The position numbers and the translations under genes were made by a program. A stretch of DNA of 64,000 nucleotides from Psychrobacillus sp. FSL H8-0483. GTDB taxonomy: Bacteria; Bacillota; Bacilli; Bacillales_A; Planococcaceae. Shown piece by piece: positions 24,667 to 63,716 of the stretch (position 1 is its first letter; the number at the start of each line of letters is the position of its first letter). Under the pieces are notes generated by a model that searched no databases, was not told where the DNA came from, and was given only the letters and a program-made list of their open reading frames with translations. The stretch is from NCBI RefSeq assembly GCF_038637725.1, contig NZ_CP152052.1, positions 1,781,501 through 1,845,500 on the forward strand, written 5' to 3'.

Positions 24667-24756
24667 CTTCTTCAACTAACGAAGGCTTATATTTAAGATC
24701 TAGCTGCCATCGATGCAGCTTTTTTTTATGTGCTAACGAAGCAGGTTAGTTGCACA
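24667..24756 (+). repeat. Palindromic repeat, composite copy (first in the window)
   Basis: Proximal copy TTCAACTAACGAAGGC (24671-24686), then a terminator AGCTGC / GCAGCT with seven T (24702-24727), then distal copy 24729-24756. In the distal copy the arms read TGTGCTAAC / GTTAGTTGCACA: the usual TTCAA/TTGAA arm has become TGTGC/GCACA on both sides, keeping the pairing. A shorter degenerate half lies at 24570-24587. Confidence 0.75.
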
Positions 24757-24783
24757 AATTATAAATTGAATAGTTTAAAGTTA

Positions 24784-24828
24784 TAGAGCATTTCCCTGTA
24801 GTTAGGAATGCTTTTTATTTTGTTTAAA
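24784..24828 (+). terminator. Orphan terminator hairpin
   Basis: AGCATTTCC / GGAATGCT stem followed by TTTTTATTTTG. It has no gene directly upstream, only the composite repeat. Confidence 0.6.
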
Positions 24829-24944
24829 AGTAAAAGGATAATTATGAAACAATAACAATGTAATTAAAAACAATGTTTTTTTATTGCAAAACGATAAAAT
24901 GAGTGTTAAATTAAAATTGACACTAAATATGTGAGGTACTATTT

Positions 24945-25295
24945 ATGACACGTAAACAATGTTCAACAATTTTCTTAAAGGTAATTATTTTTCTTATTGG
25001 AATTACGGTACTTGCTTTGTGTATATTTTGGTTGCCTTGGATAGCCAGTAGAGATGGAGAAGCGAATCCAGAGACTGCTTACTTGCAATATCCCTTTTTA
25101 GTATGTGCGTATGTATTGGCTATTCCATTTTTTGTTGCACTGTATCAAGCATTTAAACTTTTAACCTATATTGATAAGAATAAGGTTTTCTCGGAATTAT
25201 CTGTTAGAGCATTGAGGTATTTAAATCTATTTAGCTACTATACTAAGCAGGACTTACATATATTCAGAAAAAACCTTTGGAGGCACAAATCATGA
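24945..25295 (+). CDS. DUF2975-like membrane protein, C-terminally truncated
   Basis: A 116-residue protein with two clear membrane segments (residues about 9-30 and 48-72). LLTYIDKNKVFSELSVRALRYL is the conserved centre of DUF2975. Full-length members are about 160 residues with four membrane helices; here the frame departs from the family after ALRYLN and ends in a charged tail. The stop overlaps the next ATG (ATGA). A deletion junction near 25220-25260 is likely. SD GTGAGG precedes the ATG. Confidence 0.6.
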   Translation: MTRKQCSTIFLKVIIFLIGITVLALCIFWLPWIASRDGEANPETAYLQYPFLVCAYVLAIPFFVALYQAFKLLTYIDKNKVFSELSVRALRYLNLFSYYTKQDLHIFRKNLWRHKS

Positions 25296-26059
25296 GAGCA
25301 CTAAAACAACTTGTTCGTTTTGGCTGGGAGCAGGCCCTATCCTGTTTGTTTCCTATCGTTATTTTTGCCTCTTTGGCTTTTACACAAATTACGCCACTTC
25401 CCTTTCTACCACGGTATGACTGGCTGCTCATCATCTGCCTTCTAATGCAGTGGTGGATGGTGCATTCTGGGCTTGAAACACGGGATGAACTAAAAGTTAT
25501 CACATTGTTCCACCTTATTGGACTTTCTCTTGAACTTTTCAAGGTACATATGGGCTCCTGGTCTTATCCAGAGGAAGGATATTTCAAATTATTTGGAGTG
25601 CCTTTGTATAGCGGATTCATGTATGCAAGTGTAGCGAGTTATCTTTGCCAGGCGTGGAGGAGGTTTAATGTTGAACTGGTAAGGTGGCCACCGTTTTTGG
25701 TAGTTGTACCTCTTGCAGCTACGATTTATTTGAATTTTTTCACCCACCATTATTGGATTGACATTCGTTGGTGGTTATCTGGACTTGTAATTATCGTCTT
25801 TTGGCAGTCATGGGTCACATACGAGGTTAATGGAACTCGTTACCGAATGCCACTAGCACTTTCTTTTGTGCTCATCGGATTTTTTATATGGATAGCCGAA
25901 AATATCGCAACGTTCTTTGGAGCTTGGGAATATCCAAACCAAACCGATGCATGGAGTCTCGTTCATCTAGGAAAGGTGAGTTCATGGCTCTTATTAGTTA
26001 TTGTTAGCTTTCTTATTGTAGCTACGTTAAAACAGGTTAAAAGAAAAATTCCGCTATAG
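25292..26059 (+). CDS. DUF817 membrane protein (YoaT-like)
   Basis: A 255-residue polytopic membrane protein with about eight hydrophobic segments. Conserved stretches LFKVHMGSWSYPE, GVPLYSGFMYA and IWIAENIATFFGAWEYP identify the DUF817 family (B. subtilis YoaT). Function unknown. The ATG at 25292 is nine bases after SD GGAGG, while a TTG at 25277 would put the SD inside the gene. The start overlaps the truncated DUF2975 frame. Confidence 0.85.
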   Translation: MRALKQLVRFGWEQALSCLFPIVIFASLAFTQITPLPFLPRYDWLLIICLLMQWWMVHSGLETRDELKVITLFHLIGLSLELFKVHMGSWSYPEEGYFKLFGVPLYSGFMYASVASYLCQAWRRFNVELVRWPPFLVVVPLAATIYLNFFTHHYWIDIRWWLSGLVIIVFWQSWVTYEVNGTRYRMPLALSFVLIGFFIWIAENIATFFGAWEYPNQTDAWSLVHLGKVSSWLLLVIVSFLIVATLKQVKRKIPL

Positions 26060-26380
26060 TCAATTTTGATAACTGTTAAGAACTTGATTTTACGTAGGTG
26101 GAGAGGGGACGAGTCACTTTTTTTTTCACTTTTTATAGGACGAGTATAACAGTTGTTCGGCCAAGTACGTCTAAAGTCGTTCTTGATCGAACGCCAATTA
26201 TTCGGCTACTGCCCTACTCACGTTTGAAGATAGAGACTTCTTGTCGAAGAATGGTTATATGAAAAAAAATAATATAATCTAAGTTTACAAATTACATATA
26301 TTATAATTAGTCTATTTATATTGAATATTATGGATATAAAGGTATAATCAAGTAAAATAAGGTTAAGAAAGGTGATGTAA
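26060..26380. other. 320-base gap, no gene seen
   Basis: AT-rich DNA with several stop codons in every frame. The middle (26100-26225) is less AT-rich and holds ACGAG repeats (GGGACGAGTC, GGACGAGTAT) but no recognisable relic. The end carries an AGAAAGGTGATG ribosome site for the next, broken gene. Confidence 0.4.
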
Positions 26381-26824
26381 ATGAAAAAGTAATTAAGTAT
26401 ATTATTGCTATTAGTAGGATTAGTCTTTGTGATTTTTTCATTTTCAACAAATTCTTTTGCTGTCAAGAACGACAAAAGTTATGAAGATGACCAAGTTATT
26501 TCTGTTTCAGATTCTTTAGACGACTCATATGCTGTCGAGAACGACATGAGTTACGAAGATGGTCAAATTATATCTGTCTCAGATTCTTTAGACAACTCAT
26601 ATTTAACAAGGAACGACATAGGTTACGAAGATGGCCAAATTATATCTGTTTCTTCAGAGGACAAAACAATTGAAGTATTTTATACAAATTACTCCGATAT
26701 ATCAGAGACCTATTATTATGAAGAAGACAGTGGAGAAGATTGGTATAGAGTTATCGAAATTGTAAAATCTTTAAATGGTTGGTTTGCTACGTTCAGTGGA
26801 ACAAGTTCTGCATTGGTTAATTAA
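26381..26824 (+). pseudogene. Secreted tandem-repeat protein with a stop at codon 4
   Basis: ATG at 26381, seven bases after SD AGAAAGGTGATG, opens MKK then TAA (26390-26392); the same frame continues as a normal signal peptide (LSILLLLVGLVFVIF...NSFA). The mature part has three 72-bp tandem units (26459, 26531 and 26603) encoding ND.(S/G)YED(D/G)Q(V/I)ISVS blocks, then an EVFYTNYSD tail of about 55 residues. A downstream TTG (26405) lacks a ribosome site. It looks like a recently inactivated secreted protein, unless the base is a sequencing error. Family unknown. Confidence 0.7.
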
Positions 26825-26847
26825 TATATCAAAGGAAAATTTATTCT

Positions 26848-26874
26848 AAGCTCACCTATTTGGTGGGCTTTTTG
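26848..26874 (+). terminator. Terminator after the tandem-repeat gene
   Basis: AAGCTCACC / GGTGGGCTT hairpin followed by TTTTTGC. Confidence 0.85.
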
Positions 26875-27000
26875 CAAAATGGAGAACGATAGATTATGGC
26901 AAAGTGTCAACGGTAAATCGAAACGAAGGAGTTCTGCTTGCAGATTTTCGTAGTGAGAATTTAAGGAGTTGACATCCTACACTAAGTGGAGACGTTTTTT

Positions 27001-27154
27001 CAATAACGTGCAGTTTAACTGAACAAGGTTATTTTATAGTATTAAAAGAATGTTGCCAAAGGGGATGGCTTTAATGGATATAAGTTTAGAAAAAGCAACA
27101 GATGTAGATGCACCAAAAAATGAAATTCAGGTCCAGGCATTTGACTTTTTATAG
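27001..27154 (+). pseudogene. Palindromic repeat half followed by an N-terminal GNAT relic
   Basis: ACGTGCAGTTTAACTGAACAAGG at 27006-27028 is a right half of the palindromic repeat. Then ATG 27074 opens a 26-codon frame ending at 27154: ISLEKATDVDA is the usual N-terminus of a GNAT acetyltransferase (LEKATxxDA), cut off after about 25 residues. The remaining GNAT domain is gone. Confidence 0.55.
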
Positions 27155-27219
27155 TCAAAGGAAAAAGCAATGACATATCACATATGATTGGTTAGCGTTT
27201 TAAAGAAAGGAGCGATTTT

Positions 27220-28041
27220 ATGGATGCAAAAATACCCCTACCAGTCCAAAATATATTAAGTGTGTATATTTCCTTATTTCATGAAAGAATTCCCAATACA
27301 CTTGAAGGATTATATTTACACGGTTCAATTGCCCTTAACGCTTATATTAATGGCACTAGCGATATTGATTTCATTGCAATTTTAAACCGTCATTTATCTG
27401 AAGAAGAGGTAAAAATATTATCTGATACTCATCGAGAATTAAAAAATAAATTTAAAAAAACAGGAATGGACGGATGCTACCTTCTTTGGGAAGACATAGG
27501 TAAGAAACAGACTGAAACAAAAAAATGTTTATGCGTAAACGAAGGTAGAATAGGTTGGAGTAAACACGTTATTAATCCGATTACTTGGTGGATTCTCAGA
27601 GACAAAGGGATCAGCATTATTGGTCCTGAGATAACATCATTCCATTTTGATGTTGATGAAAGTGCTTTGGCTGATTACGTACTAAATAATATGAACAGCT
27701 ATTGGTTGAATCGAATGAATACAATTTCAAGATTCAAAAGAGTAGTGCTTCTATTGCCAAACAAACTTGTGGATTGGGAAGTACAATGGTCTATTACTGG
27801 AATGTTACGCCAATTCTATACACTTAGAGAACATGAAATCATTTCAAAAGTAGATGCGGGCAAAAATGCAATTAATTATATGCCAGAAAGATGGCATAAG
27901 ATTATTAATGAAGCGTTAAGTATTCGAGAAGGATTAAACATACGTTACTGTGAATCTAAAAAACAAAGGATTAATGACACAATTCAATGTATGAACTACA
28001 TACTTGATTATTGTAATAATATGAATAAAAATAAGGTCTAA
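27220..28041 (+). CDS. Aminoglycoside-nucleotidyltransferase-like protein (AadA/DUF4111)
   Basis: A 273-residue protein. The nucleotidyltransferase core is HGSIALNAYINGTSDIDF, with Gly-Ser at 35-36 and metal-binding Asp48 and Asp50. A helical C-terminal domain of the AadA type follows (GKNAINYMPERWHKIINEAL). Family members adenylylate streptomycin, spectinomycin or related hydroxyls; whether this one does is inference. SD AAAGGAG. It behaves as a single-gene cassette between repeats. Confidence 0.85.
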   Translation: MDAKIPLPVQNILSVYISLFHERIPNTLEGLYLHGSIALNAYINGTSDIDFIAILNRHLSEEEVKILSDTHRELKNKFKKTGMDGCYLLWEDIGKKQTETKKCLCVNEGRIGWSKHVINPITWWILRDKGISIIGPEITSFHFDVDESALADYVLNNMNSYWLNRMNTISRFKRVVLLLPNKLVDWEVQWSITGMLRQFYTLREHEIISKVDAGKNAINYMPERWHKIINEALSIREGLNIRYCESKKQRINDTIQCMNYILDYCNNMNKNKV

Positions 28042-28058
28042 AAGTGAGAGTGGGAGTA

Positions 28059-28496
28059 ATGAAAAAATTTTTTTTATTGTTAATTGTTATTTTTATTGCT
28101 GGTTGTAATGGAATACCTCAGACCTCTACTGATTATGTCCAAGCACAGGGCAAAGTTATTGTAGGAAATCAAGATTATTCAATGATGATAGATGAATTCG
28201 TATGGAAAGAAAAAGACTTTGAAACTAGAAAGCTTAATGATTCCAATATTTATGACTTAGCAGATGAATTCAATACATTAGAAGTTGAAAAAGATGATAA
28301 GTTAAAAATAGAAGTTGAACAAAATCCTTCTTCAATAATCGTAAATCAATGGAATGAAGATGGTACAAGTCAGACTGTTGAACTTAATGAAAATGAAATA
28401 ACTCTACCATCGAAAGAGGGCAATTATATTTATGAAGTTATGGCAGAATGGAGTGAAGGGAAAATATCTTATGTTTTTGATATTAATATAGAATAA
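28059..28496 (+). CDS. Small lipoprotein
   Basis: A 145-residue protein with signal peptide and lipobox IAGC (Cys15 of MKKFFLLLIVIFIAGC). The mature domain is acidic and beta-rich; the pattern DGTSQTVELNENEITLPSKEG followed by YEVMAEW suggests an Ig-like or inhibitor-type fold. No function assigned. The ATG at 28059 is chosen over the GTG at 28044 for its ribosome site and because it starts the signal peptide. 17 bases follow the nucleotidyltransferase, so perhaps one transcript. Confidence 0.72.
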   Translation: MKKFFLLLIVIFIAGCNGIPQTSTDYVQAQGKVIVGNQDYSMMIDEFVWKEKDFETRKLNDSNIYDLADEFNTLEVEKDDKLKIEVEQNPSSIIVNQWNEDGTSQTVELNENEITLPSKEGNYIYEVMAEWSEGKISYVFDINIE

Positions 28497-28504
28497 TACA
28501 AAAA

Positions 28505-28545
28505 AGAGGGCGATCTAAACTGAAACTTGGGTCGCCCATCTTCAC
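28505..28545 (+). terminator. Terminator of the nucleotidyltransferase-lipoprotein unit
   Basis: GGGCGA / TCGCCC stem (28508-28537) with a long loop and weak T tail. Confidence 0.6.
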
Positions 28546-28565
28546 TTTTAAAAAAATAAACAATT

Positions 28566-28651
28566 TATTTCACTACGGGGTGCTTTACTTTAGAAGAAGT
28601 AGAGCCTTTTTCTTATTCAAGTAACGAAGCTGTTTAGTTCAATAAGAAATA
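28566..28651 (+). repeat. Palindromic repeat, composite copy
   Basis: Proximal copy CACTACGGGGTGCTTTACTT (28571-28590), spacer with AGAGCCTTTTT, then distal copy TTATTCAAGTAACGAAGC / GTTTAGTTCAATAAG (28613-28647), whose arms pair TTATTCAA with TTCAATAA only partly. Same orientation as all other copies. Confidence 0.75.
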
Positions 28652-28720
28652 AAATTTGCTTTCAGCTTTGCAAATCAATTTAACACTGTCCAATTTTTAA
28701 AATATGAAGGAGGTATTATT

Positions 28721-28903
28721 ATGCAAAAATTAAAGAAATCTTCAAAAGATAGGTTATTACGGGGCGTTTGTGGAGGGATTGCAGAATTTTTCGGTATATC
28801 TACTACAATCGTTAGGTTGATATTTTTCTTTACAAGTCCAGCATCTATTATTGTGTATTTATTTTTAGCAGTGACTTTAGAAAATGATAATAAATTATAT
28901 TAA
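28721..28903 (+). CDS. PspC-domain membrane protein
   Basis: A 60-residue protein consisting of one PspC domain: charged start KKSSKDRLLRGVCGGIAEFF and one membrane helix with LIFFFTSPASIIVYLFLAVTL. Small stand-alone PspC proteins act in envelope-stress signalling. SD AAGGAGG lies seven bases before the ATG. It is a short single-gene cassette between repeats. Confidence 0.88.
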   Translation: MQKLKKSSKDRLLRGVCGGIAEFFGISTTIVRLIFFFTSPASIIVYLFLAVTLENDNKLY

Positions 28904-28910
28904 AACAATA

Positions 28911-29068
28911 CTTGGTAAGCTACCATGGAAGAACGTAAATTTTCTTCCATATTCTGTGGTGAAGCAGGGCTACATGGATGGCTAACGGGGTGCTTTAGCA
29001 GGATAGGGCTGTCAGGAGACAACCTAGAAAGATATTCAACTAAAGGGGTAGGCTAGTTTAACAAAACG
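28911..29068 (+). repeat. Palindromic repeat, long form plus a short copy
   Basis: Long form 28917-29003: CTACCATGGAAGAACG, hairpin ATGGAAGAA / TTCTTCCAT, then TTCTGTGGTGAAGCAGGGC and GGCTAACGGGGTGCTTTAGC. After a spacer, short copy 29032-29068: ATTCAACTAAAGGGGTAGGC / TAGTTTAACAAAA. Confidence 0.75.
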
Positions 29069-29111
29069 TGTGATTCACAGTATATAAAAATATAGGAAAA
29101 GGGGTGTCTTT

Positions 29112-29624
29112 ATGAAAGTAAGAGAAGCTAAATTATCTGATGCAAATGGAATAGCTTTAGTACATGTAGACAGCTGGAGAATTACATACAGAAGTATTCT
29201 ACCTAATGAATACTTAATGAACTTATCCTATAAAAGACGAGAACAATTTTGGGAAGCTAATATTCCAAATGGTAATGTGTTTGTAGCAGAGAATGATGAA
29301 GGAAAGATTGTTGGTTTTGCATCAGGTGGAAAGGAAAGAAGTGGCAAGTATAAGGAATATGAGGGAGAACTAAGCTCTATCTATATTTTAAAAGAATATC
29401 AGGGACAAGGAATAGGAAAACTCCTCGTAAAATCAGTAATTAAGGAAATTCAAAATTCAGGAATAAGCACAATGCTTGTACTTGTATTAGAAGATAATAA
29501 TTCAAGGTGGTTTTACGAGGCTATTGGTGGTAAGCAAATAAACAAAGTTATAGTAGAGATTGCTGGCAAGAAAATAAATGAACTAGTATACGGCTGGGAT
29601 AATATTGGAAATATATTTGATTAA
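29112..29624 (+). CDS. GNAT family N-acetyltransferase
   Basis: A 170-residue GNAT. VREAKLSDANGIALVHVDSWR is the typical start, ELSSIYILKEYQGQGIGKLLV the acetyl-CoA binding block (QGQGIG), and FYEAIGGKQ the C-terminal block. It resembles the RimI-like cassette acetyltransferases of Bacillus; substrate unknown. SD AAAAGGGGTG. The next repeat starts three bases after its stop codon. Confidence 0.92.
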   Translation: MKVREAKLSDANGIALVHVDSWRITYRSILPNEYLMNLSYKRREQFWEANIPNGNVFVAENDEGKIVGFASGGKERSGKYKEYEGELSSIYILKEYQGQGIGKLLVKSVIKEIQNSGISTMLVLVLEDNNSRWFYEAIGGKQINKVIVEIAGKKINELVYGWDNIGNIFD

Positions 29625-29626
29625 TT

Positions 29627-29722
29627 GTTCTTGAACTAACATGGAAGAACGTAATTTTCTTGCATATTCTGTGGTGAAGCAGTGCTTCATGGGAGGCTAA
29701 CGGGGCAGTTTAGTTGAACAAG
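29627..29722 (+). repeat. Palindromic repeat, long form
   Basis: GTTCTTGAACTAAC, hairpin region ATGGAAGAAC...TTCTTGCAT, TTCTGTGGTGAAGCAGTGCTTCATGG split by a GAAGC/GCTTC stem, then GGCTAACGGGGCAG and TTTAGTTGAACAAG. 96 bp, starting three bases after the GNAT stop. Confidence 0.82.
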
Positions 29723-29875
29723 ATCTAATTTCAAATAGAGGATTATGATTTTCTAAGTCGAATAATTTAAGAGGATATATTGAAGCAGAAACGAGATCGA
29801 TTATAAAAAGGGGATTATGGTTTCAACTTTAAACAACAGGAACTTAAATTTAGAATTGAGGGGAGAAAATATAAA

Positions 29876-30467
29876 TTGTTTATTCGTGAATATAAAGAGT
29901 CTGATGAAATAGGTTGGGTTCGATGTAGAACGCTATCATTTCTAAATACAGCTTACTTTGATAATGTTTTAAATAAAAAGGAAAGCTATGAAAATCCTGC
30001 AATCGAACTAGTTTGCAGAATTAAACGGACAAATTATTGGTCTCATTGATGTAGAGTATGAAAAGGAAGAAAAGACAGTTTGTTCAAGGGGAGAAGGTTT
30101 AGGAGGTATGGTCTGGCATATTGCGGTTCATCCAGATTTTTATCGACAAGGAATTGGCGAGCAACTACTTCACGAAGCGGAAAAGCGAGCAATCGAATTA
30201 GGTTTAAATAGATTTGAAGCATGGACTCGAGATGATTTTTGGGTACAGAATTGGTATGAAAAAATGTTTTTTAATAAAGTCGATTCATACTACCATATTT
30301 ACTTTGACGGAAGTGATATGAAAAATCGGATTCAAAGTACCATACCTAAACTCTACTTAGTCAATACATTCGCACATTACGTAGGGGATGAAATTGAGCA
30401 ATTTAAAACAACTAATCAACGAATTTATGAATGTGTTTGCTATGAAAAATATTTGAATAATATATAG
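29876..30467 (+). pseudogene. GNAT acetyltransferase with a +1 frameshift
   Basis: A TTG start after SD GAGGGGAG opens FIREYKESDEIGWVRCRTLS, which runs to residue 46 in one frame; from GCA at 30015 the protein continues in another frame as AELNGQIIGLIDVEYE, then HPDFYRQGIGEQLL (the acetyl-CoA loop) and WYEKMFF. One extra T in the TTT at 30012-30014 explains the break. Restored, it is about 197 residues with an unusual C-terminal extension. The downstream ATG at 30102 could give only the C-terminal part. Confidence 0.8.
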
Positions 30468-30468
30468 T

Positions 30469-30564
30469 GCTTATTCAACTAACGAGTGCTTTACTTGAAC
30501 AGCATAGAGCTGCTTAGACAGCTCTTTTTTTATTGAACTAAAGAATCAGTTTAGTTGAACAAGG
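30469..30564 (+). repeat. Palindromic repeat, composite copy with internal terminator
   Basis: Best example of the composite: proximal copy CTTATTCAACTAACGAGTGC / TTTACTTGAACAGC (30470-30503), terminator GAGCTG / CAGCTC with seven T (30507-30531), distal copy TTATTGAACTAAAGAATCAG / TTTAGTTGAACAAG (30530-30563). It starts two bases after the broken GNAT stop codon. Confidence 0.85.
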
Positions 30565-30626
30565 CAAGTGGAAATGGAATGTCGCATATGACACAAATTG
30601 TGAAGCAGTTATTATCTACAAAATTT

Positions 30627-30830
30627 CTACTTTGTTAGATAAAAATAGATAGCTAGTAAATAAACAATAATATAAAATACAGCCCAAATCCTATAAAAAA
30701 ACATAATGCAACCCTTTTCACTTCTAAAAATTATTAATACTGCAAGAGCTAAGATTACCATTATGATAAATGGGCTAAATGTTAGTTGAGCTAGTATAGT
30801 AGTCAACGGTTGTTCTGCTAATTCAGTCAT
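30627..30830 (-). CDS. Small membrane protein
   Basis: A 67-residue protein with two membrane helices (about 17-37 and 47-65) separated by RSEKG. The ATG at 30830 follows SD GGAGG with four bases between; an upstream in-frame start at 30860 is less likely. It runs against the direction of the surrounding genes. Function unknown. Confidence 0.6.
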   Translation of the reverse strand: MTELAEQPLTTILAQLTFSPFIIMVILALAVLIIFRSEKGCIMFFYRIWAVFYIIVYLLAIYFYLTK

Positions 30831-30946
30831 GTTGCCTCCAACTATAAGTAATAAAATCAATTAATTTTATCAGTATAATTAATAATTAACCTTAGAAGAT
30901 ACTGGAAACAAAATGAAGTTCCAATAGTAAAAAAGAAGAGAAGGTC

Positions 30947-31041
30947 CTTATTCAACTACCATGGAAGTACGTAATTTTCTTGCATATTCTGTGGTGAAGA
31001 AGAGCTTCATAGATAGCTAATGGGTGCTCTAGTTGACGAAG
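30947..31041 (+). repeat. Palindromic repeat, long form
   Basis: CTTATTCAACTACCATGG, AAGTACGTAATTTTCTTGC, TTCTGTGGTGAAGAAGAGC, TTCATAGATAGCTAATGGG, then TGCTCTAGTTGACGAAG. A diverged long-form copy just before the APH gene. Confidence 0.75.
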
Positions 31042-31069
31042 AGGAGTTAATCTAAATGAGGAGGATAGC

Positions 31070-35159: not shown

Positions 35160-35499
35160 GATTATATTGATCGCAACTATTTTTCCAATTCGACAACCGG
35201 TAGAAAACATGAATTCAAAAATCGCTTTTTCCATTGGGAATGACAGGATGAGACCAACGAAAAAACGATTTCACAAAGCGGATACGATGTGCAAGACTGG
35301 CTGGTTTTAACTGCTCGCCCGATATAGCGAGATATTCTTTCAGTTGATTTGTATCCAGCAATTCCATCACTGCATCCTTAAAATAACCAATTAGTAGCAA
35401 AGACTGTAACTGGTATGCCTTCAACGTTTGCAGTGAAAACCCCTCAATTAGTTTATCAGCTTCAAACGAAGACCATGCTTTTGACGGTAACAATACCAT
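35160..35499 (-). pseudogene. Broken tyrosine recombinase (XerC/D-like integrase)
   Basis: Read on the minus strand, residues 1-85 form the SAM-like core-binding domain (IEGFSLQTLKAYQLQSLLL, LKEYLAISGEQLKP, HRIRFVKSFFRWSH). After IPN the frame shifts, and from 35231 down to 35160 another frame reads EKAIFEFMFSTGCRIGKIVA, which is box I of the catalytic domain with its first catalytic Arg. An internal deletion of about 40-50 residues and loss of the rest (box II His-x-x-Arg, Tyr) make it inactive. It lies inside the repeat-separated array and on the strand opposite to the repeats. Confidence 0.82.
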
Positions 35500-56693: not shown

Positions 56694-56738
56694 AATTATG
56701 GTTTTAGAGTTAGTTTATGCAGGCTTTTATTCTAAGGG

Positions 56739-56768
56739 ATGATGTCTTAACAGATATCATCTTTTTTA
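56739..56768 (+). terminator. Terminator after the VOC gene
   Basis: GATGATGTC / GATATCATC hairpin, six T. Confidence 0.82.
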
Positions 56769-56904
56769 TTTACATTTTATCCATTGTAATACGGGAAAAA
56801 AAGAAAAAGTAGACGCTATTTTTACTGATATTGATGCAGATCAATTCCCGGTTTTTACCGTCATACACGGTGAGAGTATATGGGTACTCACAAAAATAAG
56901 AAGC

Positions 56905-56953
56905 GGGCTGTCCCAAATGTCGATAAATTGATTGGCAAAGGAACAGCCCTTTA
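56905..56953. terminator. Hairpin downstream of the minus-strand gene
   Basis: GGGCTGTCCC / GGAACAGCCC stem with 25-base loop; the T-tract is weak. It lies 37 bases after the stop of the 56990-57334 gene. Confidence 0.5.
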
Positions 56954-56989
56954 ATACCTATTTTAACTTCTAATAACTCATATAAGAGA

Positions 56990-57334
56990 CTAAAGTATCT
57001 GTACTAATTCTGAGTGCAAAACCCGTTGAGCAGTAATGACAACACCTGATGCTGTTCTTCCATATGAAGAATATAACCCACCGGTTTGATTCGGAACAAT
57101 TTCAACTTCATATTGAGCAGCTCCTATTTGTAAACTAAGGGTTACAAAAGCAGAAGCATTAGCACCTACGATAAAGTTTGCCGATGAAATTAATTGTCTG
57201 GTACCATTAAGTCTAAAAACTCTGGCTACTCCTGAAAGTACACCTCCAGTACGATTGAGGATTTTAACTCGAACGTTAGTTGCATTAGCAGGTTGATTTC
57301 CTGTGTTTTCAATTGGTCCAGTTGTTAAAGGCAT
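56990..57334 (-). CDS. Beta-rich protein of unknown function
   Basis: A 114-residue protein with no signal peptide: MPLTTGPIENTGNQPANATN start, alternating beta strands, and a C-terminus GRTASGVVITAQRVLHSELV. SD GAGGAGG precedes the ATG. I recall unnamed Bacillus proteins with the same MPLTTGP start and QRV-H-EL end, but no function. Its Ser/Asn/Thr-rich beta pattern would suit a spore-surface or capsid-like role (speculation). Confidence 0.65.
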   Translation of the reverse strand: MPLTTGPIENTGNQPANATNVRVKILNRTGGVLSGVARVFRLNGTRQLISSANFIVGANASAFVTLSLQIGAAQYEVEIVPNQTGGLYSSYGRTASGVVITAQRVLHSELVQIL

Positions 57335-57685
57335 TTAAAATACACCTCCTCGTAATGCAAGATTTATAATCTGCAGATTATCTAATCATTGTATTCATTA
57401 ATCTATTCATGCTCTAAACAAGATTAATTAATTTGTTGTAAATTAGTGTAAATCGAAGCAATTTGAAAAATATTAGGGCCAAAACGGTCAGACAAGAAAG
57501 ATTTCTAATGGAATTTGCAAACTGGCATAAGCCAAAAACTGAATACTTGTTAGTAATCTAATAGTAGATGCTGTCACACTAAAATCTGTCATCAACTGAT
57601 CCGAAAGCTAAGGAGGAAATTCTATCTAAATGTCGAACTGAATAATTTAAGTTTAGGTTAAAAAAATAATTTTTAGGAGGTAATT
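57335..57685. other. 350-base gap
   Basis: Contains a short perfect palindrome TAATCTGCAGATTA (57368-57381). A stretch reading EFANWHKPKTEYLLVI then stop (57509-57560) may be a relic but cannot be assigned. Ends with SD TTAGGAGG of the Nudix relic. Confidence 0.4.
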
Positions 57686-57841
57686 ATGAGGTATATAGAG
57701 GATTTACCCAAATTTGTTGGAAATCAACCTCTGATATTAGTCGGAGTAGCGGTTGCTGTTGTTAATGAAAGTGGGGAATTCTTATTACAAAAACGAGCAG
57801 ATGGACTATGGGGAGTTGGTTTATGTCCGAAGATGAATTAA
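57686..57841 (+). pseudogene. Nudix hydrolase N-terminal relic
   Basis: ATG after TTAGGAGG opens 51 codons: VGVAVAVVNESGEFLLQKRA then DGLWGVG is the start of a Nudix domain, but the Nudix box (GGxxExxE) is missing. The frame ends at TAA 57839. A different coding end begins at ATG 57823 (SEDELRRVMTEVEKIGQ, stop, FGPHIPNLFK), so two gene ends appear fused by a deletion. Confidence 0.7.
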
Positions 57842-57923
57842 GACGTGTAATGACTGAAGTAGAGAAAATCGGTCAATAATTTGGTCCTCATATTCCAAAT
57901 TTGTTTAAATAACACATGGATGT

Positions 57924-57959
57924 TGTCTGTGAACTAACGAACGTGTTACTTAAATAAGG
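57924..57959 (+). repeat. Palindromic repeat, short copy
   Basis: TTGTCTGTGAACTAACGAACG / TGTTACTTAAATAAGG; worn but same orientation. Confidence 0.65.
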
Positions 57960-58006
57960 TCTATTTCTTGTTATATAACTAAAAATATATCTTAGGAGGT
58001 TCTTAA

Positions 58007-58423
58007 ATGGACAACTCATTTCGAACGTTTCTTGATACGTATTTAGATGTTTGGAGAAGCTCATCTTTAGCGGAATTAAAAGACTTGATATCTCAAAACT
58101 ATGAATCAAGAGAGATAACAAGTGGAGATATCGTTGACTTTGCTTATGAAGAATCAGTAAATGGATGGGAACAGGGTTTTAATTTTGTTAAAGGAAACAA
58201 TGCTCAATGGAATATAGAGGTAATTTCGATTCTTCCTTTGAGAGAAGATGAAACTATGGTTATTTTATCAGCCACTATCCTCATTCAAGGAAAGAGTTTA
58301 GAAACAGCAAATTTATTCTTTCAAACGTTCAAAAGATATGGCACAAATGATTGGAAATTAATAAGAAGTTATATAGAAGCAGGAATTCCTAATGTTAATA
58401 TAAAGAGCTTTCTAATCAACTAG
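58007..58423 (+). CDS. SnoaL/NTF2-like family protein
   Basis: A 138-residue alpha+beta protein. FLDTYLDVWRSSSLAELKDL with later AYEESVNGWEQGF, and beta strands ending in DWKLIRSYIEAG, resemble DUF4440/SnoaL-type cone folds. No catalytic residues can be named. SD TTAGGAGG. Single-gene unit. Confidence 0.6.
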   Translation: MDNSFRTFLDTYLDVWRSSSLAELKDLISQNYESREITSGDIVDFAYEESVNGWEQGFNFVKGNNAQWNIEVISILPLREDETMVILSATILIQGKSLETANLFFQTFKRYGTNDWKLIRSYIEAGIPNVNIKSFLIN

Positions 58424-58513
58424 TGGCGTAAGTTACATTGTGACGGGATTTTAGAAGGAGAGAAATAAATAGAGAATCAATAATTATTAATTTTATTAAA
58501 AGGAGAGAATAGA

Positions 58514-58933
58514 ATGAGTGAAAAATTATGGAGGGTTGGAACTACTTATATTCCAGTAGTCAATGTAGAACTATCTTCTAACTGGTATGTGAACAAATTG
58601 GGAGCAGAATTGAGCTATAAAGACGAAGACAAAGCAATTCTTGATCTTGCAAACCAAAGTGTTTTTCTTGTTAAAGCTAATGATAATCAAAGTGCCAATT
58701 TTTATGATATTCACGGTGTAGAGCGTTTTTCTATCACATTTGAAGTTAATGGAATACATGCTTTAGAAGCTATACATAAAGAGTTTATAGATAAAGATAT
58801 TAGAATTGGAGAAATAGAAAATAGAGGACATGCTGGAAGGAACTTTGTATTCTACGATTTAGATGGCAATAAATTTGACATATGGAGCGAATTAAGTCCA
58901 ACTTTCAAAGAAAAATATCAGATATTTGAATAG
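58514..58933 (+). CDS. VOC family protein
   Basis: A 139-residue protein: GTTYIPVVNVELSSNWYVNKLGAEL start, RFSITFEVNGIHALEAIHKEF and GRNFVFYDLDGNKFDIWSEL near the end, with DxDGNKFDIW, the VOC C-terminal block (Asp where Glu is usual). Probably glyoxalase/dioxygenase-like; substrate unknown. SD AAAGGAGAG. Confidence 0.87.
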   Translation: MSEKLWRVGTTYIPVVNVELSSNWYVNKLGAELSYKDEDKAILDLANQSVFLVKANDNQSANFYDIHGVERFSITFEVNGIHALEAIHKEFIDKDIRIGEIENRGHAGRNFVFYDLDGNKFDIWSELSPTFKEKYQIFE

Positions 58934-59062
58934 GAAGTAAAGGTGTTGGTTTGTGACAATGGATTGATTCTTAAAATTGGAGAATTCAAGAGACATCCAT
59001 TAACCAAGTAAAGTAGTTCGAAATAGCATTTAAAATATTTATACAAACTATGGAGGATGTAC

Positions 59063-59275
59063 ATGAAATTAGATTGCTTACACGCCCATCATTCCAATAT
59101 AGCATAAATAGAAACCGCATTAGAACCTTTTGATATAGAATTAGTTCATTTTGTGGATCCAGTCATGAATTGGGTTACTCATGATGATGGCTTTGAACAA
59201 GTAAATGCAGAGCACAAAGTAAAAGAACAAATGGAATGGATGGCGAAATGCAATGAAGAAATGTACTTAATCTAA
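59063..59275 (+). pseudogene. Truncated gene with internal stop, ending in a repeat
   Basis: ATG after TGGAGGATG: KLDCLHAHHSNIA, TAA at 59105-59107, then IETALEPFDIELVHFVDP, HDDGFEQVNAEHKVKEQMEW. It resembles the N-terminus of unnamed Bacillus aspartate/glutamate-racemase-like proteins (LHAHHSNI, HFVDPGL; from memory). The frame leaves the family after KCNE and terminates in the TAA of a palindromic repeat, so the repeat marks where the rest was lost. Confidence 0.65.
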
Positions 59276-59297
59276 CGAGCGGGTTAGTAGAATAAGA
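59265..59297 (+). repeat. Palindromic repeat at the truncation point of the preceding relic
   Basis: ACTTAATCTAACGAGC / GGGTTAGTAGAATAAG; overlaps the last codons of the relic. Confidence 0.72.
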
Positions 59298-59371
59298 AGA
59301 TAATTACTTTTTCTTTTTACAGTATAATTAAATAATAATTTATACACTTAGTATGAAAGTGAGTGAAACTT

Positions 59372-60145
59372 TTGAGATTTGTTTTTGATTTAGATGGAAC
59401 AGTTTGTTTTAAAGGGCAACCAATATCTAACAGGATACTTCATTCATTGTCAGAGTTGACGGAAGTGGGTATTGAAGTCATTTTCGCATCTGCCAGACCC
59501 ATACGAGATATGCTACCTGTCATAGACGAAGCGTTTCATCATTATACAATGATTGGGGGAAATGGCTCTTTAATATCAAAAGAAGGAAAAGTAATCAAAT
59601 CCAATTCGTTTTCAACAAATGAAATTAATGAAATAAAGAATTTTATTAATCAATATAATGCTACTTATCTAATAGATGGTGATTGGGACTATGCTTATAC
59701 TGGCTCAGAAGCGCACCCTATACTTCAAAATTTAGACCCTGCAAAATTAGCGAAAATGGTTAGTTTAGAATCTCTTGATTCAGTAGTTAAAGTTCTGTTT
59801 CTAACCTCAAATAATATGGATGAATTAGCAGAAAAACTTTCAAAACTTAATGTTTATGTAAATAAACATAGTAACGAGAATGTACTTGATATCAGCCCAA
59901 GTGGGATAAATAAATGGAGTGCATTAAAGACTCTTGGGGTAAAAGAAAATACATATATCGCTTTTGGGAACGATGCGAATGATATATCAATGTTTGAAAA
60001 CGCATTGCATACAGTTATGATTGGCTATCACGAACAGTTAGCTCCTTTTGCAAAAGAGACTATTTCATTGAGTGGGGATTACGAACAGGAAATCGAAGGA
60101 AAAATACTTACTCTTTCAAAGGAATATAGACCAATCCAAGTATAG
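59372..60145 (+). CDS. Cof-type HAD phosphatase
   Basis: A 257-residue HAD phosphatase with a C2 cap. Motif I FVFDLDGTVC, motif II FASARP, motif III Lys in SGINKWSAL, motif IV AFGNDANDISMF. Cof/YbjI enzymes dephosphorylate sugar or nucleotide phosphates. The TTG at 59372 is preferred (about 11 bases after GAAAGTGAG; RFVFDLDGT is a normal start); a GTG at 59363 is the alternative. Confidence 0.87.
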   Translation: MRFVFDLDGTVCFKGQPISNRILHSLSELTEVGIEVIFASARPIRDMLPVIDEAFHHYTMIGGNGSLISKEGKVIKSNSFSTNEINEIKNFINQYNATYLIDGDWDYAYTGSEAHPILQNLDPAKLAKMVSLESLDSVVKVLFLTSNNMDELAEKLSKLNVYVNKHSNENVLDISPSGINKWSALKTLGVKENTYIAFGNDANDISMFENALHTVMIGYHEQLAPFAKETISLSGDYEQEIEGKILTLSKEYRPIQV

Positions 60146-60146
60146 T

Positions 60147-60181
60147 TCTTCTTTCACTAACGAGTGCGTTAGTTCTATAAC
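60147..60181 (+). repeat. Palindromic repeat, short copy
   Basis: CTTCTTTCACTAACGAGTGC / GTTAGTTCTATAAC, one base after the HAD gene stop. Confidence 0.7.
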
Positions 60182-60224
60182 TATCTCATTGTTTTCATGC
60201 GAGAATTAAGGGAGGTTTGAAAAG

Positions 60225-60800
60225 ATGGATGAAAAAAATATCAACCTTACAGAAGTATACTCTAGCAATCAAAATTATTGGTCATCCACAGACACAATCC
60301 ATTGTGACCTACTTACCATTAAAGATATTGTCTATAATCCGTGCGGATTTGATTGCTCACTACCAGTTTTAGAATCACAAAATGCTGAATATGGGGCATA
60401 TGTATTTAATTTGAATTCTTTATCCATTAGATTTCGTGTAGCTAAAATCACCCCTAAAAAGGTTGGACAATTTGTGACTTTATGGGAAAGAATTGGGGAT
60501 GGCTCAATCCAACCATATGACATTTCAGAACCAGTCGATTTCTACGTTATTAGTACACGTAATGATGATATATTTGGTCAGTTTATATTTCCTAAAACTG
60601 TACTTTCTGATCAGGGGATATTATCCAATGAAGGTAAAGGTGGTAAACGCGCAATACGTGTTTATCCACCTTGGGACAAGCCTACAAGCCGTCAGGCTAA
60701 AAAAACTCAGACATGGCAGTTGGAATATTTCCTTGAGACAGCTGTAAATAGAGAAATAGATTGTGTTCGTGCTCATAAACTTTATTATAACCAATCGTAA
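60225..60800 (+). CDS. MepB family protein
   Basis: A 191-residue soluble protein. CGFDCSLPVLESQNAEYGAY, SIRFRVAKITPKKVGQFVTL and RAIRVYPPWDKPTSRQAKKT with QTWQLEYFLE identify the MepB family, first seen in the S. aureus mepRAB operon. Function unknown. SD GGGAGG. Here it stands as a lone cassette without mepR or mepA. Confidence 0.88.
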   Translation: MDEKNINLTEVYSSNQNYWSSTDTIHCDLLTIKDIVYNPCGFDCSLPVLESQNAEYGAYVFNLNSLSIRFRVAKITPKKVGQFVTLWERIGDGSIQPYDISEPVDFYVISTRNDDIFGQFIFPKTVLSDQGILSNEGKGGKRAIRVYPPWDKPTSRQAKKTQTWQLEYFLETAVNREIDCVRAHKLYYNQS

Positions 60801-60878
60801 TTTCATGTTTTTCATTATTATTATATACAAATTTGGTTTATAAAAAGAGGACTTTCTAAGTATGAAGATATATTTCTT

Positions 60879-60974
60879 CTTATTGAGCTACCATGGAAGA
60901 ACGTAATTTTCTTCCATATTCTGTGGTGAAGCAGGGCTTCATGGAAGGCTAACGGGGCAGTTTAGTTCAACTAG
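60879..60974 (+). repeat. Palindromic repeat, best-kept long form
   Basis: 96 bp. Outer arms CTTATTGAGCTA / TAGTTCAACTAG. Hairpin I ATGGAAGAA / TTTCTTCCAT (60893-60917). Hairpin II TGAAGC / GCTTCA (60927-60941). Then GGCTAACGGGGCAG. CTTCCAT (60911-60917) could instead pair with ATGGAAG (60941-60947), so two folds compete. Confidence 0.85.
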
Positions 60975-61118
60975 CAGGTATAGAGAACATTAATCTTAAG
61001 TGGGATTAATGATTTATTTCGTTTAATAGATAGAATGGACAAATGTCCTTTCTTTTATTAATTAATACATATTACTATTAATGACAGGAAAGATGATTGT
61101 TAGGTGCAGAGTGTCGAC

Positions 61119-61156
61119 AAAGGGTTTCGGAATGGCCACATTCCGAAACCCTTTTT
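61119..61156. terminator. Bidirectional terminator
   Basis: Perfect 16-bp stem AAAGGGTTTCGGAATG / CATTCCGAAACCCTTT, 4-base loop; serves the minus-strand EamA gene and the array side. Confidence 0.93.
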
Positions 61157-61204
61157 GGCAAGATTGGATTTTGTTATTCTAATAGGGGTCCTATTAGAAG
61201 TTGA

Positions 61205-62122
61205 TCAAGCTTGAAAGCTTTGTTTAGCGAATACATTTTGTTTTGCATGAACCTTTCTTTTGAGGTACGAGAATAAAAAACAACCTGTTATTACAATTGC
61301 ACTTCCTATTCCTTGTATCCAGGTCATTTGTTCTCCTAAAAATAAAAAAGCTAAAATTGCTGTAAAAATCGGATTAAAACTTAAAAAAACACCTGAAGTA
61401 GTGGAGCCTAATTTTTGAATACAAATATTCCAAAGGACCATACATACTACTGTTGAGATAACGCCTGTATATAACATTGCACCTATAAAAGAAAGATTAA
61501 TATTTGAAACAGTAAAATCAGGAAAGCTCAGAGGCAGTAGTACCATTAGTCCAAAAATAGCTGAGTATAAAATAGACATCAAAGGTGAAGTCTTTGTCAT
61601 TGCCCACTTGCTGCAAATCGTATATATTCCCCATACACATACAGCAGCAATCATCCATAAATCTCCTGTATTAAAATCCAATGAAAGCAAATAGACTACT
61701 TTCCCATTTGAAAGTACAAGTATCACACCTAAAAGTGAAAATATCATTGAAATAATTTGCAGGAAATTAATTTTTTCTTTTAAAAATAAAATAGAAAAAA
61801 CAGCGATTGAAATCATATTTAACGTAGAGATTAAGCTGACATTTGTCGCAGTTGTTTGCTCTAATGCTAAAAATTGCAAGATGTTAAATAGAACAACACC
61901 TGTTAATCCCATTAAAAACAAAGGAAGTATTGCATTTCGTGGCGGCAGAATTTTTTTTTCTTTCCACCAAACAAGAGGGAACAGGCAAAGGACTGCAATG
62001 ATCCACCTTAAAGTCGTTAAGGTCATCGGTGAAGAATGTTCAACAAGAGATTTACTAACAACAAAATTCCCTGCCCAAAATAAACATGTTAAAAGTAATA
62101 AGACATAATACTTAAATGACAT
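61205..62122 (-). CDS. EamA/DMT-family permease
   Basis: A 305-residue protein with ten membrane helices formed by two EamA repeats (first: FWAGNFVVSKSLVEHSSP; second: GDLWMIAAVCVWGIYTICSKW). Family members export amino acids and metabolites. The start is ATG 62122, ten bases after SD AAGGAG; a TTG at 62143 would contain the SD. It is divergent from an Lrp-type regulator 240 bases away that probably controls it. Confidence 0.92.
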   Translation of the reverse strand: MSFKYYVLLLLTCLFWAGNFVVSKSLVEHSSPMTLTTLRWIIAVLCLFPLVWWKEKKILPPRNAILPLFLMGLTGVVLFNILQFLALEQTTATNVSLISTLNMISIAVFSILFLKEKINFLQIISMIFSLLGVILVLSNGKVVYLLSLDFNTGDLWMIAAVCVWGIYTICSKWAMTKTSPLMSILYSAIFGLMVLLPLSFPDFTVSNINLSFIGAMLYTGVISTVVCMVLWNICIQKLGSTTSGVFLSFNPIFTAILAFLFLGEQMTWIQGIGSAIVITGCFLFSYLKRKVHAKQNVFAKQSFQA

Positions 62123-62363
62123 ATCCTTTATCTCCTTCTTCAAATTTCACCGATCCAGGTACTGCCCTTTAAGCCGTATGCACGATGAGTTTTAATGAGC
62201 TATAAATAATTTTAACATTTTCCTTTCATTATCAGTATTTCTTTCTGTATAATGAGGTAAATTCGAAATAATGATAATAATTCTTAGGTGCTTACAAAAT
62301 TTTATTTCGTTTTCATGTTTATTTCTTTTGAATTTTTGAAGAATAGAAGGGGAGTGAGAATCA
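62123..62363. promoter_or_regulatory. Divergent control region between eamA and lrp-like genes
   Basis: 240 AT-rich bases. Lrp-type proteins usually bind several loose AT-rich sites; inverted words GAAATAATGATAATAATTC (62264-62282) and AAATTTTATTTCG (62297-62309) are candidates. No core promoter was assigned with confidence. Confidence 0.45.
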
Positions 62364-62852
62364 GTGGAATCAATCGTTAGTAAAATACTTGATGATCTTG
62401 ATATTAAAATCTTAGATATTCTCCAAAAAGGAGCACAGATAAGCAATTCTGAAATTGCTAAACGGGTTAATTTATCTCCACCCGCAACTCACGCACGGAT
62501 CAAAAGATTAGAAAATGAAGGATATATTAATCAGCATGTGGCGATATTAAATCAAGAGAAGCTTGGATTTGATTTATTATCTATTATTTTTATTAGTACG
62601 AACATTCACCAATCTGAGAAGCTGAAATTCTTGGAGGAAGCATTAAAGTCTATGCCAGAGGTTTTGGAGTGTCATTGCTTAACGGGAGAATATGATTATC
62701 TTCTAAAGGTGGCAAATAAAAACCGCAGGGAATTGGAGAGCTTTATAAGAAAATTAAATAAACTTGGCATCACACGTATTCAAACTAGCTTAGTACTAAG
62801 GGAAATTAAGTATTCGACAGTTTTACCCATTTCCCCAAATCACCAAAATTGA
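62364..62852 (+). CDS. Lrp/AsnC family transcriptional regulator
   Basis: A 162-residue protein. The helix-turn-helix is ISNSEIAKRVNLSPPATHARIKRLENEGYI (residues about 25-54), and a RAM/AsnC effector domain follows (LECHCLTGEYDYLLKV). It starts with GTG 62364 after SD AAGGGGAGTG. By divergence it probably senses an amino acid and controls the EamA permease. Confidence 0.92.
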   Translation: MESIVSKILDDLDIKILDILQKGAQISNSEIAKRVNLSPPATHARIKRLENEGYINQHVAILNQEKLGFDLLSIIFISTNIHQSEKLKFLEEALKSMPEVLECHCLTGEYDYLLKVANKNRRELESFIRKLNKLGITRIQTSLVLREIKYSTVLPISPNHQN

Positions 62853-62878
62853 TAATAGGTCCAAACAAGAATAGAAAG

Positions 62879-62915
62879 AGGCTGTCCAATATTTTCACTA
62901 TTGGACAGCCTTTTC
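62879..62915 (+). terminator. Terminator of the Lrp-like gene
   Basis: AGGCTGTCCAATA / TATTGGACAGCCT stem with TTTT tail. Confidence 0.88.
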
Positions 62916-63030
62916 CATATTCAGATATAGTGTCACCGTTTGTATAACCACAATTTCATATAATAAATAAATATTGTGTTTTTATATGAAAGGCTTTATT
63001 ACTTTATAGTTGAAAGTTTGTGAAGTATTA

Positions 63031-63065
63031 CACTTAAACTAACGAAGCAGGTTAGTTGAACAAGA
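63031..63065 (+). repeat. Palindromic repeat, well-kept short copy
   Basis: CACTTAAACTAACGAAGCAG / GTTAGTTGAACAAG; core arms CTAAC / GTTAG perfect. Confidence 0.82.
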
Positions 63066-63116
63066 ATATTGTCTTATCATAAGGAAATACTACCTTTAAA
63101 ATTAGGTAGGGATTAG

Positions 63117-63625
63117 ATGGAAAAAATTTCAGTTATATTTTTGCTATTGCTATTAGGTTTAACAACTTTAATATTTGTAACTTGGGAAAGACCACCAAAA
63201 GCAAAGGCAATAAATGAAGAAAATGAGGAATTATTCGAAGTGATTTCAGTGCCCTGTAGCCTAACATTGGAGTCTGTTGATAAAAGTCTGACGAATACAA
63301 AAGGTGTAGCATTAGTCTATAAAGTGCAATTAAACCCACCAAGTTTTGCAAGAACTAATATAAGTATTCTTGCTGTTCATCTTCCTGAACCGTCTTCTTA
63401 TGGAGACTTCGATAGCTATGAAGGTTTTGCGTTTGTTCCAAAAGAAATAATTGGCGTTTTAAGCTTTATCCAACCCCAGAGGAGAATGGTCCAAGTTGGG
63501 CTGGACGATTTGATTTAATTACAGCAGAAATGAAGAATGTCGAAGTTCAGGTGCGTCTCTCAAATACCAAAACAGGTAAGTTAGGACCAAGTGTTCTAAC
63601 AAACAGTATTAAATATTGTAAATAG
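63117..63625 (+). pseudogene. Secreted or membrane-anchored protein with a frameshift
   Basis: ATG 63117 (site TAGGTAGGGATTAG) opens a signal anchor (ISVIFLLLLLGLTTLIFV) and a beta-rich domain to residue 118; the first frame stops at 63518, but after the run CAACCCCAG (63472-63480) the other frame continues as PEENGPSWAGRF, DLITAEMKNVEVQVRLSNTK to TAG 63623. A one- or two-base change in the C-run explains it. Unbroken length about 168 residues. Family unknown. Confidence 0.68.
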
Positions 63626-63716
63626 TTTCTTCAACTAATGGTTGCGTTGATCCAAGAAGGATTAACGCTTTTTTTGTTGAACTTATTTAACTAACGCAGC
63701 AGCTTAGTTGAATAAG
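63626..63716 (+). repeat. Palindromic repeat, composite copy with terminator
   Basis: Proximal copy TTCTTCAACTAATGG (63626-63640) merges into a terminator GCGTTGATCC / GGATTAACGC with seven T (63644-63675); distal copy CTTATTTAACTAACGCAGC / AGCTTAGTTGAATAAG (63682-63716). Begins directly after the TAG of the preceding gene. Confidence 0.85.

Follow-up and report, generated by a model that had tools for sequence, protein, structure and literature searches.

Paired palindromic repeats as probable recombination sites of an integron-like gene-cassette system in Bacillales

We analysed a 64,000-nucleotide stretch of the Psychrobacillus sp. FSL H8-0483 chromosome, hereafter the window (C1:1781501−1845500; the genome is a single contig of 4,136,829 bp), in which palindromic repeats alternate with small genes. 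The repeats are probably the recombination sites of an integron-like, chromosomal gene-cassette system native to Bacillales. A preliminary description of this DNA had proposed an integron-like array or a repeat-driven gene capture, and the proposal is supported by a recombinase gene lying inside the repeat and by gene units that recur with homology ending at the repeats.

Clustering of the repeat in the window and genome

Two counts confirmed that the repeat is real. One arm, TTAGTTGAATAAG, allowing 2 mismatches, matched 29 times in the 64-kb window against 5.4 expected (standard deviation 2.3; none of 100 shuffles reached 29), and a search for paired arms (≥19 of 26 positions matching) returned 21 places against none in the reversed sequence, three of the 21 (43523, 52715 and 59607) being chance-like by our judgement. 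The profile search (nhmmer) gave 10 matches at E≤0.01, including 2 partial ones. By our count the window holds ~20 sites plus half-sites, fewer than the about thirty copies first reported. No copy had been seen before 24.6 kb in the preliminary description; the first paired-arm place lies at 28,612, and 3 of the 29 single-arm matches, with 2 mismatches apiece, lie before 24.6 kb.

The window is the more degenerate end of the array. At a stricter cut (≥20 of 26) it contained 14 paired-arm places, and the next two 20-kb stretches contained 24 and 8, better preserved; of eight control stretches elsewhere in the genome six contained none at the same cut and the other two contained 2 and 1. Array copies run on to C1:1,913,254, ~68 kb beyond the window, and the profile matches in the window and the adjoining array stretches have a single orientation throughout.

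When the whole genome was searched with a covariance model of 30 composite copies (see below), 125 rows reached E≤0.1; 9 of them were opposite-strand reads of the same copy, leaving ~116 copies; this is a lower bound because 150 of the 3,474 genome candidates were scored. The copies are not evenly distributed, 39 of the ~116 lying between 1,806 and 1,914 kb, in 107 kb or 2.6% of the genome, and the recurring gene units described below tie them to the movement of genes. Further clusters lie near 0.33, 1.64, 2.25, 2.47, 2.53−2.56, 3.23, 3.30, 3.33 and 3.46 Mb. Site orientation mostly tracks GC skew, with exceptions at 2.29, 3.28−3.30 and 3.65 Mb. A plain genome-wide pattern with 2 mismatches was dropped, having given 651 matches versus 740 in the reversed control.

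Two cores in one site

The repeat had been taken for a single palindrome with a short core. It is palindromic, but the well-preserved copies are composites of 80−98 bp, in which a palindrome A (13-8-13) and a palindrome B (13-9-13) usually enclose a terminator-like hairpin. The A consensus, CTTATTCAACTAA-CGRGTGCT-TTAGTTNAAGATC, is followed in many composites by the hairpin and its T-run (identified by eye), and then by the B consensus, CTTATTGAACTAA-CGCAGCAGG-TTAGTTGAATAAG. Single palindromes made of an A-left arm, a B core and a right arm are also present, for example at 63,030 and 59,263. Five extended variants (28905−29007, 29620−29722, 30940−31042, 32302−32379 and 60872−60974) carry 60−70 nt extra in the A half with a conserved insert, CCATGG...CTTCCATATTCTGTGG...CATGGATGG. 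The sites of the window and the features tied to them are as follows.

24667−24758 (+), A-terminator-B composite, first of the array; nhmmer 38.3 bits, whole-genome model search (R1) 36 bits
28564−28646 (+), A-terminator-B composite of the short 83-bp type; nhmmer 48.5 bits, R1 59.9 bits
28905−29065 (+), composite with 60−70 nt extra in the A half, then B palindrome at 29031−29065; 20.2 bits
29620−29722 (+), extended-type element with a B core and its right arm at the end
30470−30563 (+), composite, the best preserved in the window; nhmmer 76.3 bits, R1 88.2 bits
30940−31042 (+), extended-type element with an A core
32116−32149 (+), single palindrome; paired-arm search
32302−32424 (+), extended-type A half and B palindrome; 34.2 bits
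35245−35490 (−), relic of a tyrosine recombinase N-terminus, antisense to the array; 85% identity over 81 amino acids to the intact copy
35560−35595 (+), B site adjoining the recombinase relic; paired-arm search
40740−40778 (+), single palindrome; paired-arm search
46892−46941 (+), B half of a composite; 25.9 bits, model positions 47−95
51222−51310 (+), A-terminator-B composite; nhmmer 33.8 bits
54975−55071 (+), A-terminator-B composite; nhmmer 41 bits
57925−57958 (+), single palindrome; paired-arm search
59263−59296 (+), single palindrome, left end of a duplicated HAD cassette
59363−60145 (+), HAD-hydrolase gene of the cassette 59272−60175; second copy, 95.9% identical, in the same array at L003:12667−13570
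60148−60181 (+), single palindrome with an A-type core
60872−60974 (+), extended-type element, 89% identical to 29620−29722
63030−63064 (+), single palindrome of the ACTTAAAC type with a B core
63626−63716 (+), A-terminator-B composite, the last of the window but not of the array

When three sites were folded as single-stranded DNA, both strands each, two formed a long imperfect hairpin (z −3.7 to −5.4) pairing A-left with B-right and TGCT with AGCA, and the third formed none (z −1.1 and −1.7). The pairing of the long hairpin was present in 78.9% of cells versus 73.8% for two local palindromes. The motifs of attC sites (R″ RYYYAAC and R′ GTTRRRY), sought in 396 near-complete composites, occurred strictly at both positions in 1 and with at least 6 of 7 bases at both in 86; the commonest R′ were TTTAGTT (133) and GTTAGTT (102), and the commonest R″ was AACTAAC (215).

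Gene units recur with homology ending at the sites

Sequence stretches were fetched as loci (numbered L001 onwards; genomes of the genus are numbered G001 onwards, and "own" denotes the source genome). A set of 151 loci, 2.85 Mb in all, yielded 1,312 site matches (E≤0.01). Neighbouring full sites bounded 617 units, of which 580 were distinct. Among the 393 distinct units of ≤1,500 bp, open reading frames (ORFs) of ≥60 amino acids numbered one in 281, two in 62, three in 8 and none in 42. The early impression of mostly one-gene units fits these short units, but less so the window, where several genes lie between recognisable sites at 36.4−40.7 and 43.1−51.2 kb. Of the 351 short units with such an ORF, 323 had the longest one on the array strand and 28 had it on the opposite strand; one-ORF units of the array strand had a median leader of 57 nt and a median trailer of 21 nt, with the longest ORF taken.

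Comparison of the units gave 83 pairs at ≥70% coverage, from which 38 at ≥99.95% identity (taken as duplicate genomes) and 3 below 78% were dropped. The remaining 42 pairs, 78−99.9% identical over ≥70% of both units, were reduced to 37 by removal of duplicates. Homology spanned site to site in 27 of the 37, and in 33 it did not continue past the flanking site on either side within the ≤1.5 kb of flank examined. One such unit, 97.7% identical, was common to Solibacillus palustris (L090) and an own locus (L127); the DinB unit of L003 was also present in Bacillus sp. FJAT-29814 and Neobacillus niacini, and the HAD unit occurred twice in the own array (95.9%). In the boundary profile, for which 20 left and 19 right ends were usable, above-random identity started on the left within the B right arm (about −12 to −9) and was near random above −19; on the right it ran through the A left arm and the A core and faded after about +24. 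The interiors of the flanking sites were mostly no more alike than those of random site pairs (mean 0.685).

In the first 91 loci 54 of 328 ends of homologous segments fell at a site in both loci versus 0.35% of random points; in 151 loci the figure was 585 of 2,296 (25.5%) versus 3.9% of points placed at random in intergenic DNA and 0.56% of points placed at random overall. The segments counted are mutually non-independent, and the larger set leaves out 15 high-scoring segment pairs above 99.9% identity as well as pairs lying mostly within recombinases or introns. Comparison of G013 with Psychrobacillus vulpis showed a site interior replaced between flanks of 97−98% identity. A search for empty sites returned 42 non-identical places, mostly trivial or multi-copy, with one informative swap of a site interior and one unclear loss. 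As far as sequence comparison goes, the units are mobile single-gene cassettes with precise ends.

A tyrosine recombinase encoded within the site

An intact tyrosine recombinase gene lies within the array and antisense to it at C1:1853420−1854256 (−) (279 residues matched, open frame of 294). The window itself contains the relic at 35,245−35,490 (−), a feature absent from the preliminary description. The catalytic domain scored 134.9 bits against PF00589, with R, HxxR, H and Y intact by eye. The protein reached 222.4 bits with NF040815 (labelled XerA/"integron integrase"), just above the cut-off of 220, and 90.6 bits with the IntI model TIGR02249, far below its cut-off of 265, which was not exceeded anywhere in the genome. 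By these profile scores the enzyme is Xer/XerA-like and not IntI, and a classical integron was ruled out; the likeness to integrons stands, but the identity with them does not. The closest solved structure by sequence was 4a8e, an XerC-like protein, the remaining Xer-like proteins of the genome were 31−33% identical to the array recombinase, and its closest named relatives were mostly from Psychrobacillus. A prophage origin was considered and rejected: 59 phage records matched the recombinase, all at <60% identity, and four window cargo proteins had no PHROG match at E≤1e-5.

The conserved recombinase unit is ~1.0 kb long and ends in two site halves, reading as a reverse B core, the recombinase, a terminator-like hairpin and a reverse A. 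By eye, the left end carried a B-like half in 25 of the 26 loci printed, and the right end carried an A-like half in 21 of the 24 for which it was printed; the gene has this position between the halves in many genera. The gene also occurred in the opposite orientation, along the array and still between A-like and B-like halves, in six loci (L077, L078, L081, L096, L101 and L113) from Peribacillus, Cytobacillus, Heyndrickxia and Bacillus testis, with stop codons in the L101 stretch. The recombinase gene, found between A and B halves either way round, thus occupies the loop of what is presumed to be its own site, whichever direction it faces. Relatives of the recombinase were fetched as 78 loci, some of which overlap or share a genome; sites at E≤0.01 were present in 71, all antisense to the recombinase in 55, co-oriented in 13 and mixed in 3. 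Recombinase copies are numerous and often broken, with several copies or relics in many genomes, and the DNA of the close group is mostly 87−94% alike across genera. An attI site was not recognised by eye in the printed recombinase flanks, no dedicated search having been made.

Group II introns (RF02005, RF00029) were found in all five loci searched, oriented with the array (L003:8849−9522, L006:909−1601, L049:6558−8462, L109:6052−8878 and L117:16008−17160). The intron of the own copy (L003) interrupts the B site of the recombinase unit between GCAGGT and TAGTTGAAGAAG, and the 5′ junction of the intron is identical in L006 and L043.

More distant recombinases (61−65% identity; Sporosarcina limicola, Bacillus sp. 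RAR_GA_16 and Pseudalkalibacillus, in L076, L083 and L085) had no such sites nearby and may use a different palindrome. A third class of palindrome, with a core like AACAATCGGGCCAG...TTGTTGAATAA, was seen at L008:16595−16628, near 8190 in L158, downstream in L076 and upstream of the recombinase in L083, and is perhaps the site of that different clade.

Distribution across genomes

Sites were detected in all 19 genomes of the genus (5 to 142 rows each, E≤1e-3), in 65 of 161 genomes of a family sample (E≤1e-4) and in 23 of 299 genomes of a class sample that includes family members. Every one of the 28 family genomes whose recombinase is close (≥79% identity, E≤1e-60) had at least 4 sites, versus 15 of the 133 others, a comparison uncorrected for ancestry, with the cut of 4 chosen after seeing the data and short recombinase fragments missed. 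The recombinase and sites also occurred on plasmids of Sporosarcina, Peribacillus and others, and plasmids are likely vehicles.

Four genomes of the same genus (G004, G008, G010 and G016) had 17−98 site rows and no close recombinase at E≤1e-20. They resemble clusters of attC sites lacking an integrase.

Cargo and other features of the window

The cargo of the window includes GNAT, APH, AadA-like and VOC genes. Pfam assigned the following.

27220−28041 (+), AadA_C nucleotidyltransferase-like protein
29112−29624 (+), GNAT acetyltransferase
31070−32065 (+), APH-family kinase
60225−60800 (+), MepB-like protein

Left of the array, a 2.6-kb stretch was 65−77% identical to relatives with a long match (one genome per species). 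A separate repeat of ~60 bp at 21319−21384 of the window (1024−1089 of the query 20296−22899) had at least 14 further matches in its own genome, where 15 of 111 candidates were scored, and was also matched in G002, G003 and G009. A SAM riboswitch lies upstream of metA at 17166−17274, and tandem 72-bp repeats (26453−26652, three starts 72 apart) lie within the ORF 26405−26824.

Proposed mechanism and alternative readings

Each full site (80−98 bp) combines the palindromes A and B, whose arms are 13 bp long and which we read as its two core sites, and the array would alternate two kinds of unit. A gene unit, usually with one small gene, would extend from the B right arm to the A left arm, and an "X" unit, between the A and B cores, would hold a terminator-like hairpin or the recombinase gene. 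The dedicated Xer-like recombinase would act at the boundaries of arm and spacer, in B at ...GG^TTAGTT... and in A at ...TAA^CG.... Recombination there would let gene and X units change places, duplicate and pass separately from one array or genome to another, probably carried by plasmids. The substrate would be either a folded single strand, as at attC, or a duplex, as in dif modules. Sequence comparison shows the anatomy and clustering of the sites, the recombinase gene between site halves and gene units in new contexts, whereas catalysis by this enzyme, the cut points and the form of the substrate are inferred. We advance more tentatively the wider proposition, to which we give somewhat less than even credence, that this is a third bacterial cassette platform beside integrons and dif modules, in which gene cassettes are interleaved with site cores (terminator or recombinase) and share split sites, the recombinase travels as the loop of its own site and can do without an attI or a fixed platform, and small genes for enzymes and resistance-like functions are shuffled across Bacillales genera by arrays that number >100 sites in a genome.

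Several observations weigh against a cassette system of this kind. Half of the homology ends (1131 of 2296) fell at no site, and both ends fell at sites in both loci in only 10 of 152 segments (91 loci) and 90 of 1,096 (151 loci). Among the recurring pairs, one homology end lay inside the unit in 10 of 37, and homology passed or resumed beyond the site on one side in 4 of 37. The likeness of a flanking site to its counterpart exceeded the 95th percentile for random pairs in 6 of 42 cases upstream and in 10 of 42 downstream, so that X and gene units are not always independent. The right-end A half was missing in 3 of 24 printed loci (L043, L050 and L054) and recognisable sites in 7 of 78 recombinase loci, and 15 of the 133 family genomes lacking a close recombinase at E≤1e-60 had at least 4 sites; furthermore, the genome-level association of recombinase and sites ignores shared ancestry. 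Finally, arm pairing showed no covariation beyond shuffles, for either the long hairpin or the local palindromes: the 7-base R″/R′ complementarity within the element was 5.54 versus 5.53 shuffled, the 13-base arm pairing was 8.48 versus 8.44 within the element (a level reached by 45 of 300 shuffles) and 8.52 versus 8.50 within the gene unit (reached by 88 of 300), and a cruder count of the outer arms was below shuffled (5.40 versus 5.71). For this reason we make no claim of a folded substrate.

A variant of the cassette reading, with overlapping odds, treats A and B, which have TGCT in common, reversed, as duplex Xer-type sites in inverse orientation and the X and gene units as alternating modules like those of Acinetobacter pdif, with no folded strands. 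The alternation of two module types, the 13-8/9-13 geometry and the Xer-like enzyme all speak for this variant, which we regard as a serious possibility short of an even chance; on the other hand, the pdif spacer is 6 bp as described in PMC13141974 versus 8 and 9 bp here, and pdif is assumed to use two host enzymes whereas a further enzyme is encoded here within a site.

It is also conceivable, if unlikely, that the composites are internally deleted miniatures of the 1-kb recombinase element, akin to bcr repeats and other miniature inverted-repeat transposable elements (MITEs), inserted between accessory genes and not moving them. The recombinase unit and the composites have the same ends, as would be expected of an autonomous element and a miniature derived from it, the recombinase copies are many, often broken and closely alike across genera, and bcr1−bcr3 are themselves called MITE-like in PMC3446304. 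However, insertion of a miniature would not bring unrelated neighbours to a shared gene unit at the repeat, nor would it explain why the repeats face the same way with respect to 323 of 351 genes. Such insertion may be part of the truth for the X units, which do move. That the repeats are terminators or regulatory hairpins, as the hairpin and T-run of many composites would suggest, and that ordinary homologous recombination or transformation merely breaks by chance in intergenic repeats, is very improbable given breakpoints at sites more than sixfold over the intergenic control, a recombinase gene inside the element, and random site pairs only 68.5% alike, which makes the sites poor substrates for homologous recombination.

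If the cassette reading is correct, soil Bacillales would own a large cassette system based on a Xer-like enzyme and carrying GNAT, APH, AadA-like and VOC cargo, which would explain the assortment of such genes across genera. It would constitute a second origin of the cassette strategy, comparable with integrons, and would open the question of how attC-like sites and cassettes arose to testing. In the account of IntegronFinder 2.0 (PMC9024848) complete integrons are extremely rare in Firmicutes, the sole one being that of Limnochorda pilosa, together with a few attC clusters. A search of the literature for integrons in Firmicutes and, among relatives of Bacillus, for integrons, cassettes, attC-like sites and tyrosine recombinases, with subscription journals and preprints outside its scope, found no such system in the titles and abstract openings among the matches listed.

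Comparison with known systems

An attC site is described in PMC3053210 as two simple sites forming a hairpin with an unpaired spacer and extrahelical bases. Like integrons, the Bacillales system has arrays in which compact units, mostly of a single gene, lie on the same strand, sites composed of two imperfect simple sites that may fold into one hairpin, a recombinase gene that in most loci (55 of 71 here) runs antisense to the array, arrays lacking a recombinase, group II introns in sites and a presumed crossover near G^TTAG. Unlike in integrons, the recombinase is Xer/XerA-like and its gene lies inside a site, no attI was recognised by eye, many genomes have several recombinase copies or relics, the loop holds terminator-like hairpins, and genes mostly move without the interior of the site. 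The group II introns, present in all five loci searched and in one case splitting a B site, recall the IIC-attC introns; those lie opposite to the cassettes according to PMC7923331, whereas the introns of the five loci run with the array.

The dif modules of Acinetobacter, for which PMC13141974 describes two alternating module types and XerC/XerD pdif sites with a 6-bp spacer, resemble the Bacillales arrays in their short Xer-type sites, the alternation of two module types and module shuffling. They differ in that the Bacillales array encodes a recombinase, is chromosomal with tens of units, and has sites of 13-8/9-13 geometry.

The bcr1−bcr3 repeats, for which we follow PMC3446304, and other MITEs resemble the Bacillales sites as short interspersed intergenic elements of Bacillaceae with mobile traits. 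The Bacillales sites differ in being clustered, in having mostly one orientation per locus, in delimiting mobile gene units and in having a matching tyrosine-recombinase element. Tyrosine recombinases are viewed in subgroups in PMC8138268; with its R, HxxR, H and Y residues and a score above the NF040815 family cut-off, the array recombinase falls among the Xer-type simple enzymes.

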